Source of the DNA: Prochlorothrix hollandica PCC 9006 = CALU 1027
Lineage (GTDB): Bacteria > Cyanobacteriota > Cyanobacteriia > Prochlorotrichales > Prochlorotrichaceae
Assembly: GCF_000332315.1 (NCBI RefSeq)
Contig: NZ_KB235941.1
Location: 3,360-58,541, forward strand
Direction: 5' to 3'
DNA length: 55,182 nt
Below, piece after piece: positions 1,952 through 6,571 of the stretch. The position numbers were made by a program, and so were the translations under genes. The notes under the pieces were generated by a model. That model ran no database searches, was not told the DNA's origin, and saw only the letters and a list, made by a program, of their open reading frames with translations. Numbering within the stretch: the first letter of the stretch is position 1; each line of letters starts with the position of its first letter.

Positions 1952-2475
1952 GCCATTGAGGCGGCGGATTATCTGGACAACGGCGATCGGGTGCAACGCT
2001 GCCAGTTGCTGGGGCTGCAAGACCTCAAAACTGAGTCCCCGGTGGTGCAGGCCAACATTGCCGCCTATCTCAATGGGCGGATATTGACTGGATCGGTTCG
2101 CTGGGGGACGATCGGGGCCGAACGCTGCCGGTGACCTGTGGGGCGGGCTGGTTGTGTGAACACCGCTGGCCTGGGGTGGCGCGGCTGGTGGGCTGGCGGC
2201 GGGCGATGGGGACGGAGCCGGTGACGCGGTGGTGGGAGGGTTCGGGGCGACGGGTGGCCTTTGGCCGGGGCGATCGCGGCTTTGTGGTGATTAATGGGGA
2301 TCGGGATCCCTGGGGGGCGGTGCTGCGGACGGATCTACCGCCGGGGCGCTATGACAATTGGTTGGCGACGGATCCGGGGGCGATCGTGGTGGATGAGGGG
2401 GGGTATTGCGGTTGACGGTGCCGCCGGGGCAGGCGGTGGTGCTGGCGATTCCGACCATCCGGCCCAGGGGCGTGG
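1952..2475 (+). pseudogene. Alpha-amylase (GH13) remnant, copy 1
   Basis: Two separate parts of a GH13 alpha-amylase are fused here. About 1952-2070 encodes IEAADYLDNGDRVQRCQLLG and then DLKTESPVVQANIAAYLN, the region before the catalytic Asp of secreted alpha-amylases. After an out-of-frame deletion joint near 2070-2090, the frame continues with DWIGSLGDDRGRTLPVT, CGAGWLCEHRWPGVARLVGW and FGRGDRGFVVING, which belong to the C-terminal part. A 7-G tract at 2396-2402 (8 G in copy 2) shifts the frame again before VPPGQAVVLAIPTIRP. The catalytic core between the two parts is lost. It is nearly identical to copy 2 (3885-4356) over about 260 bp. Confidence 0.8.
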
Positions 2476-2659: not shown

Positions 2660-2674
2660 GATTATTGGTCAGTT

Positions 2675-2746
2675 ATGCCAAAATCTTTGGATGAAGCTAG
2701 GAAAGATTACAGTATTACTCCAGTTTCTGATATTTGGGATACATAA
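2675..2746 (+). pseudogene. Short gene fragment (23 codons)
   Basis: An ATG frame encodes MPKSLDEARKDYS then ITPVSDIWDT and a stop. The amino-acid composition looks protein-like and the base composition is AT-rich like the following gene pair, but it is too short to assign. It may be the 5' remnant of a small gene cut by the MITE at 2765. Low certainty. Confidence 0.25.
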
Positions 2747-2764
2747 GGCATCATCTTTTTACCT

Positions 2765-2865
2765 TACAGCAGTCCTAAATGGGTCGTGTGGTGCCCCCGG
2801 AGGGGGCACACCACACAAAGGGTTTCAGCCATCGAGATCCTTACAACTGATTTAGGGTTGCTGTA
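2765..2865. repeat. TA-flanked palindromic MITE, copy 1 (~101 bp)
   Basis: It starts TACAGCAGTCCTAAAT and ends ATTTAGGGTTGCTGTA, imperfect terminal inverted repeats. An inner GC-rich hairpin has GTGCCCCC and GGGGGCAC arms. Eight further copies lie in this window. The TA at each border fits the target duplication of IS630/Tc1-mariner-type transposases; no transposase gene is present. Confidence 0.85.
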
Positions 2866-2958
2866 GTTGGTAAAATAGTAAAAACTGGTGATATTTTTCA
2901 TCTGGCAAGCTGGTATTTCCAACCTTTTCACCTAAACCTTGGACAAAGGGAGTTTACA

Positions 2959-3177
2959 ATGCCATTGACTAACCTCATGTCACAAATCCAAAAACTTCCA
3001 AAAATTGACAAGCTTCGGCTAATGCAGTTTCTGGCAACAGAACTGGTCAAGGAAGAAGATGCAAACTTCTTTGTTGCGAATCAAGAGTATCCTGTCTGGT
3101 CGCCTTACAACTGCTCTGAGGCTGCTAATGTCCTGATGAACCTTCTGACAACAAAACAACAGGAACGCAATGGCTGA
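2959..3177 (+). CDS. Small protein paired with an aspartyl protease-like gene
   Basis: The product is 72 residues: MPLTNLMSQIQKLPKIDKLR followed by an acidic/polar C-terminal half with a NQEYPVWSPYNCSEAANVL stretch. A good Shine-Dalgarno (GGGAG, 2949-2953) precedes the ATG. The C-terminus overlaps the next gene by 8 bp, so the two are co-transcribed and translationally coupled. Size, helical N-terminus and overlap resemble an antitoxin or accessory subunit, but I do not recognise a named family. The pair is AT-richer than the core genes and is followed by an attC-like site. Confidence 0.7.
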   Translation: MPLTNLMSQIQKLPKIDKLRLMQFLATELVKEEDANFFVANQEYPVWSPYNCSEAANVLMNLLTTKQQERNG

Positions 3178-3589
3178 CGCTCAGAAATTTCCCTACAAAA
3201 TTATTGATAGCAGTCTCGGCATGGTTGATCGAATGCCATATTTGCCTTTGACACTTATTTCTAGTGGTCAATCCGTGAACACCGAAGGGTTGTTAGATAC
3301 AGGCGCAAGCGTTAATGTTTTGCCATACGAGTTGGGTACACAACTGGGCTTGACCTGGGAGAATGAGACACTCTCGGTTGTGTTGGCGGGCAACTTGGCT
3401 CGATTTGAAGCTCGCGCAATCGTTGTTGAAGCTCAAGTCAGCCCATTTCCCACTGTTGATCTCGCATTTGCTTGGACACAAGCACCCAATGTACCTTTAA
3501 TCTTAGGGCAAGCTAATTTCTTCTTTGAGTTTGAGGTCTGTTTTTTCCGTGCACGTTCTGAATTTGAAATCCGCCCCAAGCAAGGTTGA
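3170..3589 (+). CDS. Retropepsin-like aspartyl protease family protein
   Basis: The product is 139 residues. The motif GLLDTGASVNVLPYELGTQL at about residues 42-61 is the DTGxS/T catalytic signature of clan AA (retroviral-type) aspartic proteases, with the hydrophobic flap-like VVLAGN stretch and a C-terminal LILGQANFF resembling the conserved ILG(R/Q) element. As in retropepsins, one active-site Asp per chain implies a homodimer. The substrate is unknown. It overlaps the preceding 72-residue gene, suggesting a two-component unit. A structure with the properties of an integron attC site follows 47 bp downstream. Confidence 0.75.
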   Translation: MADAQKFPYKIIDSSLGMVDRMPYLPLTLISSGQSVNTEGLLDTGASVNVLPYELGTQLGLTWENETLSVVLAGNLARFEARAIVVEAQVSPFPTVDLAFAWTQAPNVPLILGQANFFFEFEVCFFRARSEFEIRPKQG

Positions 3590-3635
3590 TAGCAATAAAG
3601 ATGAAATCCCAGTGGGAAGCTACTAGCGAGGCACG

Positions 3636-3722
3636 GTCTAACAACCCGGTTGGAGCGGACTAACAAGAGATCTTGGTGGGGATGCAAAGGCTGTTTGCAG
3701 CCGCTCAACCGGAACGTTATAC
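3636..3722 (+). other. attC-like integron recombination site (87 bp)
   Basis: The left core box is GTCTAAC (3636-3642, fits RYYYAAC) and the right box is GTTATAC (3716-3722, one mismatch to GTTRRRY). Inside them GGTTGGAGCGG pairs with CCGCTCAACC, leaving one unpaired base, as in the L''/L' arms of attC sites with an extrahelical base. A variable loop separates the arms. The position directly behind a promoter-poor small gene pair fits a gene cassette. No integrase is in the window, so this would be a solo or CALIN-type cassette. Confidence 0.6.
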
Positions 3723-3884
3723 CGAACCAAAAAGTCCGTTGAGGTTGTCTGATTTCATCCGAGATTGGGCAAGCAAAAATGGTTCTCTTTGTTGTTTAGT
3801 GCGATCGCCGATCTTGTAGCAGGGTAAGCGCAAGAAAATCATACCCAAAGTATGCATTGGCTTTCGGGCAACACAGGTGGGGGC
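3723..3884. other. Intergenic between attC-like site and amylase copy 2
   Basis: No gene or repeat is recognised. It is AT-rich on the left and becomes GC-rich where amylase similarity begins near 3885. Confidence 0.3.
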
Positions 3885-4356
3885 AGAACCCCCATTTTTT
3901 GAACCGGCGGATGGGGGACAGAGCTATGGGCTGGCGACGGTGTTTATGCTGGCGTGGCCCTATGGCACACCTCGCGTTACGTCGGGCTATGACTGGGATC
4001 GCCGCTGGCAGGTGGATCCGGGGACGGGGCAACGGCGGGATGACCATGACTGGATCGGTCCGCCGGGGGACGATCGGGGCCGGACGCTGCCGGTGACGCG
4101 GTGGTGGGAGGGTTCGGGGCGACGGGTGGCCTTTGGCCGGGGCGATCGCGGCTTTGTGGTGATTAATGGGGAGCGGGACCCCTGGGGGGCGGTGCTGCGG
4201 ACGGATCTACCGCCGGGGCGCTATGACAATTGGTTGGCGACGGATCCGGGATCGATCGTGGTGGATGAGGGGGGGGTATTGCGGGTAACGGTGCCACCGG
4301 GGCAGGCGGTGGTGTTGGCGATTCCGACCATCCGGCCCAGGGGCGTGGAAAATTAG
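3885..4356 (+). pseudogene. Alpha-amylase (GH13) remnant, copy 2
   Basis: An open frame of about 155 residues encodes only the C-terminal portion: FFEPADGGQSYGLATVFMLA, WPYGTPRVTSGYDW, then RWWEGSGRRVAFGRGDRGFV and a C-terminal all-beta domain ending VPPGQAVVLAIPTIRPRG. The upstream catalytic barrel and signal peptide are absent. Compared with copy 1 it lacks about 84 bp between two CCGGTGAC direct repeats (the CEHRWPGVARL segment), and it keeps an 8-G tract that preserves the frame at 4269-4276. It is a fragment even though open; expression is doubtful. Confidence 0.8.
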
Positions 4357-4608: not shown

Positions 4609-5853
4609 ATGGTCAAAGCGTCTTGGAGTTCTGACGGTAGTACTATTCCAGATGTTGAAGCGCACACCAAAGCTAAGCACAAGATCCTAGAGACTTATGT
4701 AGAAGAATTAATAGTTACACTCTACGGGAAGGGTAGGTATGGTTCTACAAAATTTACATTTGTCGATGGTTTTTGCGGTGGTGGCATCTATCGAGATCCA
4801 GAGGATGGGCAGATTTGGGCCGGCTCTCCAGTCAGAATATTTCAAGCAGTAAATCGAGGAGTAGTTAAATCCCAAAGAAAATACGATATAGATGTGCAAT
4901 ATATTTTTATTGATAGCAAACAGGAGCATATTGACTGTCTTAAAAAATATACACTCCCCTATTTCGGCCTAGAAAAAGAAGCCGAAGGCCATAATGTAAA
5001 ATTTATGTGTGATGACTTTGAAAGTGTCGTAAATCAATGCTGCCTCAGTGTTGATATTCATAAAGGACATTCCTTCTTTTTCCTTGATCCCTTTGGCTGG
5101 ACAGATGTTTCCATGGCCAGTATCAGAAAAATAAGGAGACTCAAAAAGTCTGAAATTCTGTTCACCTATATGATCGATTATATAGAACGGTTCATAGAGC
5201 AGCGTTTTAATCAACTAAAATCTAATTTCACCAATATCTTAGAGGCAGATGGATTTTATACTGAAGCTAAACCTTCTCGCATTAATGAAATAGGAGAACA
5301 GTGTTATCTTCGGAATGAGTCCATGAGACTTTTTCGTGAGAAGGGAGAATATCCTTATGTGTTTACTTTTTCACTTATCCCAAGAAATAATTCAAGAGTT
5401 CTATACTATTTAATTCACATGTCACAGGAATTAACGGCTCTGGAAGTGATGAAAGCTAGCTTTTGGGGAGAGAATACTCTGGATTATCAGTACTATTTTG
5501 AAATATATGGATATGGATTCAAAACATCTGACTACTACCAGGCTAATCAAGGTGAGTTGAAGTTTGATATTAATCCTGGTGCTGATCAGTTTTGCATAAA
5601 TAGGTTAGATGCTTCTGTCATGAAGATAATACATAATTGCAAATCGAATGAATTAACCTTTCGTGAACTTTGCGAAATAACAATCCAAGAAAATCCTGCT
5701 ACTCGTCAACACTATGAAGAATTAATTACCTTGAAGCGTTCAGAACAAGATATTACTGTTTTGAGAGATGGCAGGAAAACTACTGCAAAAAACCTTCAAT
5801 GGGATGATGTTATTAAAGTTTCTGATTCTAAGCAGCTATTTCTCTTTCCTTAG
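4609..5853 (+). CDS. tcmP: Three-Cys-motif partner protein TcmP
   Basis: The product is 414 residues. The N-terminus DVEAHTKAKHKILETYVEEL followed by FTFVDGFCGGGIY (D53-G59) is characteristic of TcmP, named for its association with three-Cys-motif (DUF5131, Gp37/Gp68-type) proteins. The DGFCGGG loop and a later FFFLDPFGWTDV look like motifs I and IV of SAM-dependent methyltransferases; that similarity is my inference, not an established activity. The gene is clearly AT-richer than its neighbours and uses many AT-ending codons, so recent acquisition is likely. It runs tail to tail with the DUF5131 gene, and the two coding regions overlap by 26 bp, so each stop lies within the other gene. Confidence 0.85.
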   Translation: MVKASWSSDGSTIPDVEAHTKAKHKILETYVEELIVTLYGKGRYGSTKFTFVDGFCGGGIYRDPEDGQIWAGSPVRIFQAVNRGVVKSQRKYDIDVQYIFIDSKQEHIDCLKKYTLPYFGLEKEAEGHNVKFMCDDFESVVNQCCLSVDIHKGHSFFFLDPFGWTDVSMASIRKIRRLKKSEILFTYMIDYIERFIEQRFNQLKSNFTNILEADGFYTEAKPSRINEIGEQCYLRNESMRLFREKGEYPYVFTFSLIPRNNSRVLYYLIHMSQELTALEVMKASFWGENTLDYQYYFEIYGYGFKTSDYYQANQGELKFDINPGADQFCINRLDASVMKIIHNCKSNELTFRELCEITIQENPATRQHYEELITLKRSEQDITVLRDGRKTTAKNLQWDDVIKVSDSKQLFLFP

Positions 5854-6571
5854 GCACGTCATTGTCAAAATTAGTCTGTTTTGGCATCTCTTTGTAAAAT
5901 TTACCATGGAGGCTAGCACCTTGGGCCTTGGAGTGCCTGCCGCCCCATTGTTTGAAAAAGAATGCTACATTGGCTGACTCTGCTTGCTGTTGTAAAGACT
6001 CCACCCAAGCCGACTCCATGGGCCGGAATCCATGGCCTGATTCCCCACCCACGATTAACCAGTGGATCTGATCAAGATTTAACTTGAGGGGACCCAGCAA
6101 TGGTTCACAGGACAGAAAACGTACCTGAGCCGGAACCTGTCGCAAGGCATCAATGCGGTGAACATAAGCCTGATTTTCCACCGAAACCCCCATCCAAATA
6201 TTAGGATGCCACGGTAGAAACGGGGCTAATTCCAGTAATATATCGTCCCGCTTAGTCAGAATTTGATAAATATGCTGGGGTGTTTCCCCCATGACGGCAA
6301 AGACTTGCTGTAGAAACTCCAGGGGCACATCTTTGTGAAACAGATCGCTCATGGAGTTGACAAAAATGCGGCTGGGCTTGCGCCAGCGACGGGGTTGATC
6401 TAGCCGGTCTTCGTGGAGCTGAAGCGTAAACCCATGGGGAAAGTGGTTGGGAAACCGTCGTGTAATCGCTTCCGCATAGCAATGGGTACAGCCTGGACTC
6501 ACTTTGTCACAGCCTGTAGTGGGGTTCCAGGTTTTGTCTGTCCACTCAATTCCCGTCTTACTGCTTGACAT
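5828..6571 (-). CDS. Three-Cys-motif DUF5131 (phage Gp37/Gp68-type) protein
   Basis: The product is 247 residues. The signature GCDKVSPGCTHCYAE places three cysteines at 21, 28 and 31 (CX6CX2C), reminiscent of an iron-sulphur or radical-SAM-like cysteine cluster, within a TIM-barrel-like protein (ILTKRDDILLEL, MGVSVENQAYVHRIDAL, LSCEPLLGPL, IVGGESGHGFRPM). These fit the DUF5131 / phage Gp37Gp68 family. A strong Shine-Dalgarno (GGAAGAGG) precedes the ATG at 6571. The family has no settled biochemical role. Its frequent partner TcmP is convergent here rather than co-directional. GC content is closer to the host average than that of tcmP. Confidence 0.85.
   Translation of the reverse strand: MSSSKTGIEWTDKTWNPTTGCDKVSPGCTHCYAEAITRRFPNHFPHGFTLQLHEDRLDQPRRWRKPSRIFVNSMSDLFHKDVPLEFLQQVFAVMGETPQHIYQILTKRDDILLELAPFLPWHPNIWMGVSVENQAYVHRIDALRQVPAQVRFLSCEPLLGPLKLNLDQIHWLIVGGESGHGFRPMESAWVESLQQQAESANVAFFFKQWGGRHSKAQGASLHGKFYKEMPKQTNFDNDVPKEREIAA

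Follow-up and report, generated by a model that had tools for sequence, protein, structure and literature searches.

Integrons have been studied best in Proteobacteria. Previous work reported intI genes and attC sites in Cyanobacteria (PMC8352920, PMC8618304, PMC2426708), and a cyanobacterial attC model has been published (PMC8352920). The sedentary chromosomal integrons of Vibrio store anti-phage systems (Darracq et al. 2025 and Getz et al. 2025, as cited in PMC12444791 and PMC12409362), and in E. coli cassettes are reported to insert at attG sites over many loci (PMC12444791). attC clusters lacking an integron-integrase (CALIN) are defined by at least two attC sites. PADLOC holds models for a pair of proteins under the label PDC-M52, PDC meaning 'candidate'; our literature search returned no publication on PDC-M52, and integron cargo status was undescribed in the papers found. 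Cyanobacterial integrons and the candidate PDC-M52 were, then, already known, and what is new, as far as the literature searched goes, is their repeated combination.

The locus described here lies in a 55-kb window, the whole stretch of Prochlorothrix hollandica DNA that was analysed (55,182 nucleotides). As in other cyanobacterial chromosomal integrons, the attC sites of this genome have R and L boxes and an extrahelical base, intI points away from the array with attI lying upstream of it, and both ORF-less and defence-type cassettes occur. Unlike those integrons, the window copy has a single attC with no intI nearby, and several partial integrons and 14 attI-like sites are present in the genome. 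The likeness to the Vibrio integrons is in the defence-gene cassettes, here including DarTG and DRT4-like ones; the differences are the phylum, the short scattered arrays in place of one large array, and a defence role that is predicted here. The window resembles a CALIN in that its attC has no intI beside it and might be mobilised in trans, but with one attC in 55 kb it falls below the two-site threshold and was not classed as one. As for PDC-M52, the adjacent genes S and P match the A and B models, respectively, over nearly their full length.

The attC site and the integron machinery

The features of the region, in window coordinates, are as follows.

2085-2475 (+), degenerate alpha-amylase C-terminal fragment of the left flank, 94-97% identical to 4047-4348
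2526-2659, Repeat 1, MITE-like, terminal inverted repeats GTAACCATTCAGGGG / CCCCTGAATAGTTAC
2673-2679 (+), GTTATGC, proposed previous junction, not supported
2765-2865, Repeat 2, MITE-like, ends TACAGCA..CCTAAAT, with TA at both ends
2866-2958 (+), upstream region of the module, with an extended -10-like TTGGTAAAATA at 2867-2877 that is conserved in relatives
2959-3177 (+), gene S, 72 aa, small partner, PDC-M52A (PADLOC PDLC04691, E 4.7e-12)
3170-3589 (+), gene P, 139 aa, clan AA (retropepsin-like) aspartic protease, PDC-M52B (PADLOC PDLC04692, E 1.5e-52)
3636-3722 (+), attC site, 87 nt, R'' at 3636-3642 (GTCTAAC) and R' at 3716-3722 (GTTATAC)
3716-3801 (+), head (first ~85 bp) of a second, ORF-less cassette, truncated, 92-96% identical to genome copies
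4047-4348 (+), second degenerate alpha-amylase fragment, right flank (PF02806, E 5e-9; ORF 3877-4356)

The attC site begins 46 bp 3' of gene P and has the order R'', L'' with one extrahelical base, variable loop, L', R'. The outer boxes pair at six of seven positions, with one mismatch, and contain the AAC / GTT core; the inner arms GTTG[G]AGCGG / CCGCTCAAC pair with one extra base left over. It is the bottom (-) strand that attC recombination uses. Folded as single-stranded DNA, the site gave z scores of about -4.2 for the bottom strand and -4.4 for the top strand, and none of 200 shuffled sequences folded as well.

A hairpin of this kind might resemble attC by chance, and a simple box-pairing scan that found the site also gave 16 matches in 160 kb of shuffled sequence. 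Covariance models were therefore used. Model R1 was built from 13 attC sites of the Prochlorothrix genome alone, collected by a DNA search with the window region and then a structural scan near the matches; model R2 was built from 55 sites of Prochlorothrix and other cyanobacteria, the window site being excluded. R1, which has the window attC among its sites, scored it at 79.8 bits, and R2 gave it 80.4 bits (E ~4e-20); neither model matched anywhere else in the window. Rfam had no match anywhere in the window. In the alignments of 13 and 55 sites the extrahelical base is fixed in position and varies in letter, and pairing of the inner arm (94%) is kept up by numerous compensatory changes. The alignment was fitted to the structure, which biases the compensatory counts towards pairing, but a one-base shift of partners abolishes the signal. 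A DNA search of the same genome found ten other places resembling the window attC region. Given the boxes, the extrahelical base and the score obtained with the site left out, 3636-3722 is a genuine attC. The chance-hairpin explanation is refuted by that score together with the ten similar places, the switching of partners exactly at the core (below) and the presence of two intI genes in the genome.

These two intI genes are full length, lie on contigs C5 and C7, and scored 449 and 446 bits against a family cut-off of 265; intI fragments were found on contigs C6 and C10. Read against established motifs, both full IntI proteins have the integron-specific stretch and the usual catalytic arginine, HxLRH and tyrosine. 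The regions upstream of intI on C6, C7 and C10 have in common TGCTTCCTNNTTNATA followed directly by GTTA, which was read as attI. With up to two mismatches allowed there are 14 such sequences in the genome, and none for a reversed control pattern. attC sites number 35-38 (38 with R1). At the level of the genome, then, an integron is present, with intI over the cut-off, attI and an attC array. The 55-kb window contains no second attC and no intI or attI-like sequence, the intI and attI copies being on other contigs or far away, and the locus lacks the intI and attI beside the cassette that would make it an integron in itself. An IntI from another contig (C5 or C7) can most probably act in trans on the folded bottom strand of the window attC, as with integrase-less attC clusters.

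The attI-like sequences are at C7:338829-355275, C6:2213, C12:98489, C1:307945 and 1296729, and C9:1159329. Six of the 14 sit in one array region of C7, and most have no adjoining intI; repetition of attI within one array is unusual.

The preliminary description of this DNA had proposed an integron-type cassette in a cyanobacterium, ending in an 87-bp attC-like hairpin with both core boxes and one unpaired base. The hairpin was borne out by the left-out score, and attC, intI and partner switching agree with the cassette. That description had also called for covariance scoring, done here with our own cyanobacterial models, and for a genome search for similar sites and intI, and held that a low score with no similar sites elsewhere would make the hairpin a chance one; the outcome was the opposite.

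Cassette junctions and the probable origin of the window copy

The ORF-less cassette is 224 bp long and is the first behind attI at C6:71179-71402, C7:355036-355259 and C10:6563-6787. Two attCs, that of the window and the one at C7:340350, are followed by the same head, and at C6:61179 a shorter piece of it stands after the attC. The head thus occurs in three intI-linked attI contexts and three attC contexts, and the switch is exactly at GTTATAC. To the left of the core, the window shares 82-84% DNA identity with the S-P cassettes of Pantanalinema, Scytolyngbya and Elainella, and the identity ends at 3719-3720, within the core. The change of partner thus falls at one point for both flanks, which is what recombination by IntI would be expected to produce. 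No other evidence in the set is as strong, and from the partner switching at the core we infer past recombination at the window attC. The ORF-less cassette itself might be a promoter cassette or belong to the fixed parts of the platform.

Since the attC is followed on the right by the head of a cassette known from elsewhere in the genome, the window copy reads as a two-cassette remnant of an array, detached from its integron. Such a remnant, made up of the S-P pair with its own probable promoter, a true attC and the truncated ORF-less head, is very probably what the window holds. Insertion of a single cassette at an attG site, a non-classical target outside the integron, would fit a solitary site far from intI, and has the precedent of the E. 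coli insertions, but it would leave chromosomal DNA on both sides; a piece of array came along here, and we regard such an insertion as improbable.

The left side of the cassette region is cut by Repeat 1, of which the same genome has more than 20 copies at 88-99% identity. Repeat 2, with about 20 copies in the genome, mostly at 92-97% identity, is inserted just 5' of the module promoter. Homology to relatives starts at 2867 because of this insertion, and 2867 was accordingly rejected as a cassette edge. The preliminary description had taken GTTATGC at 2673-2679 for the previous junction, giving a cassette of about 1.04 kb. The proposal does not hold: the GTT is preceded by A where all 13 aligned attC sites have C, no attC arms or attI TGCTTCCTNNTTNATA stand before it, and it lies between the two repeats, which interrupt the supposed cassette. 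GTTATGC may be a chance occurrence, and a complete cassette at 2673-3722 is not supported, the sequence before the proposed left core fitting neither attC nor attI. Elsewhere in the genome, copies of Repeat 1 are often in or beside cassette arrays (C6:70997; C7:336016-345367; C4, beside attC in L007), apparently more commonly than the genome-wide density would give.

Similar alpha-amylase fragments flank the whole remnant, so that a rearrangement probably brought the remnant to its present locus. A DNA search found no intact copy of this alpha-amylase C-terminal region elsewhere in the genome. The two fragments are degraded differently.

Conservation of the S-P module and its association with attC

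S and P overlap by 8 nt, and the overlapping genes of 72 and 139 residues described earlier upstream of the hairpin were confirmed at their positions. P scored 29.2 bits against Pfam PF13650 (cut-off 24.3) and has the motif LLDTGA, whose D43 and G45 are invariant in 24 diverse homologues; with a D[ST]G motif and a family profile match, P is classed as a clan AA aspartic protease. The PDC-M52A model was matched by all 24 members of a diverse S alignment. P homologues were found in 63 of 386 cyanobacterial genomes, with several paralogues per genome, and in nearly all loci read a homologue of S precedes P, mostly with the same 8-nt overlap. As judged from these sequences, S and P are translationally coupled, and the module they form is conserved among cyanobacteria. 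An alignment of 23 upstream regions showed conservation of the -10-like TTGGTAAAATA, which makes it probable that the module carries a promoter of its own, at 2866-2958.

Structure prediction and searches for relatives added little. The AlphaFold model of P was unusable (pLDDT 38); that of S has four helices (pLDDT 71) with no fold match. A sequence search of the PDB gave no relative of P and chance-level hits for S, and none of the viral contigs encodes protease P. In most of the close subfamily P is 81-87% identical, as against 70-75% for MetH and 78-87% for ThiG, a comparison that is suggestive of horizontal transfer and not decisive.

A same-strand attC was found no more than 40 bp past the protease stop in 15 of 93 other module loci, among them those of Pantanalinema, Elainella and Scytolyngbya; with 3-101 attC sites per genome, less than one such locus is expected by chance. 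Eleven of the 15 also fed model R2, and R1, built from the Prochlorothrix genome only, had already found those eleven. An attC directly after the module in so many loci marks S-P as recurrent cassette cargo. The earlier suggestion of a protease pair as cassette cargo is thus borne out, S-P sitting before a true attC, while the expectation that such cargo would be unusual is not, the same module preceding attC in many cyanobacteria. About 78 of the 93 loci have no detected attC, and the module therefore does not depend on integrons. A second S-P module of the genome (C9:1159329-1161655, L087) is in the opposite orientation to its adjacent attC, with an attI-like site ~1.5 kb away.

Possible function of the pair, and defence genes in other cassettes

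The reading we favour, tentatively and at somewhat less than even odds, is that the cargo is a candidate anti-phage module. The retropepsin-like P, which would be active as a dimer, would be the effector, and the small coupled S would restrain, activate or guide it, so that infection would unleash proteolysis. The same reserve applies to the wider proposal that cyanobacterial integrons have, time and again, taken up S-P as a protease-based anti-phage system and carried it from family to family; if so, these integrons would be defence stores like those of Vibrio.

Toxin-antitoxin modules are common integron cassette cargo, and the pair might instead be such a module, in which P would be the toxin and S the antitoxin, and which would stabilise cassette arrays. 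The preliminary description had raised a toxin-antitoxin-like module, and the small gene in first place, the 8-nt overlap in most homologues and the promoter-like region of the pair's own would all suit it; further, four of the 24 S homologues have a weak match to Unstab_antitox (best E 0.013). Matches to known type II toxin-antitoxin families are all sub-threshold, however, VapB15 giving 13.9 bits against a cut-off of 80, and the best match of the pair is to PDC-M52. Several P homologues are broken by stops or truncation, which also speaks against a toxin, though loss of the toxin alone would be tolerable. The suggestion therefore stands as a possibility without a family assignment at a curated cut-off, and we hold it less probable than the anti-phage reading, with which, in the form of an infection-triggered protease, it overlaps. 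Less probable still is an ordinary housekeeping or regulatory protease unit caught by integrons. That most module loci are not beside a detected attC, and that one close copy lies directly 5' of an apparent cytochrome oxidase subunit I gene, would be expected of such a unit; the patchy distribution among cyanobacterial genomes, the several paralogues per genome and the strong attC association would not.

The recurrent pairing of S-P with attC makes a small (~0.7 kb) unit whose anti-phage activity is directly testable, in a module uncharacterised so far. The Prochlorothrix genome around it has several integron copies, intact integrases and scattered arrays, with cargo rich in known or candidate defence genes. 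Its other cassettes encode DarT and DarG, a DRT4-like reverse transcriptase, PDC-S02, a PD-T4-4/PDC-M47A ATPase and an NsnA-like protein. The cassette with DarT and DarG is at C12:209010-211477 (L022:5120-6825). The stretch between two attC sites at C6:65839-70853 (L019:13494-16190) codes for a PDC-S02 nuclease and for a DRT4-like reverse transcriptase that looks truncated. In the window, at 4609-6571 and directly downstream of the remnant, two genes, one TcmP-like and the other convergent, match the PDC-M30/M41 defence candidates.
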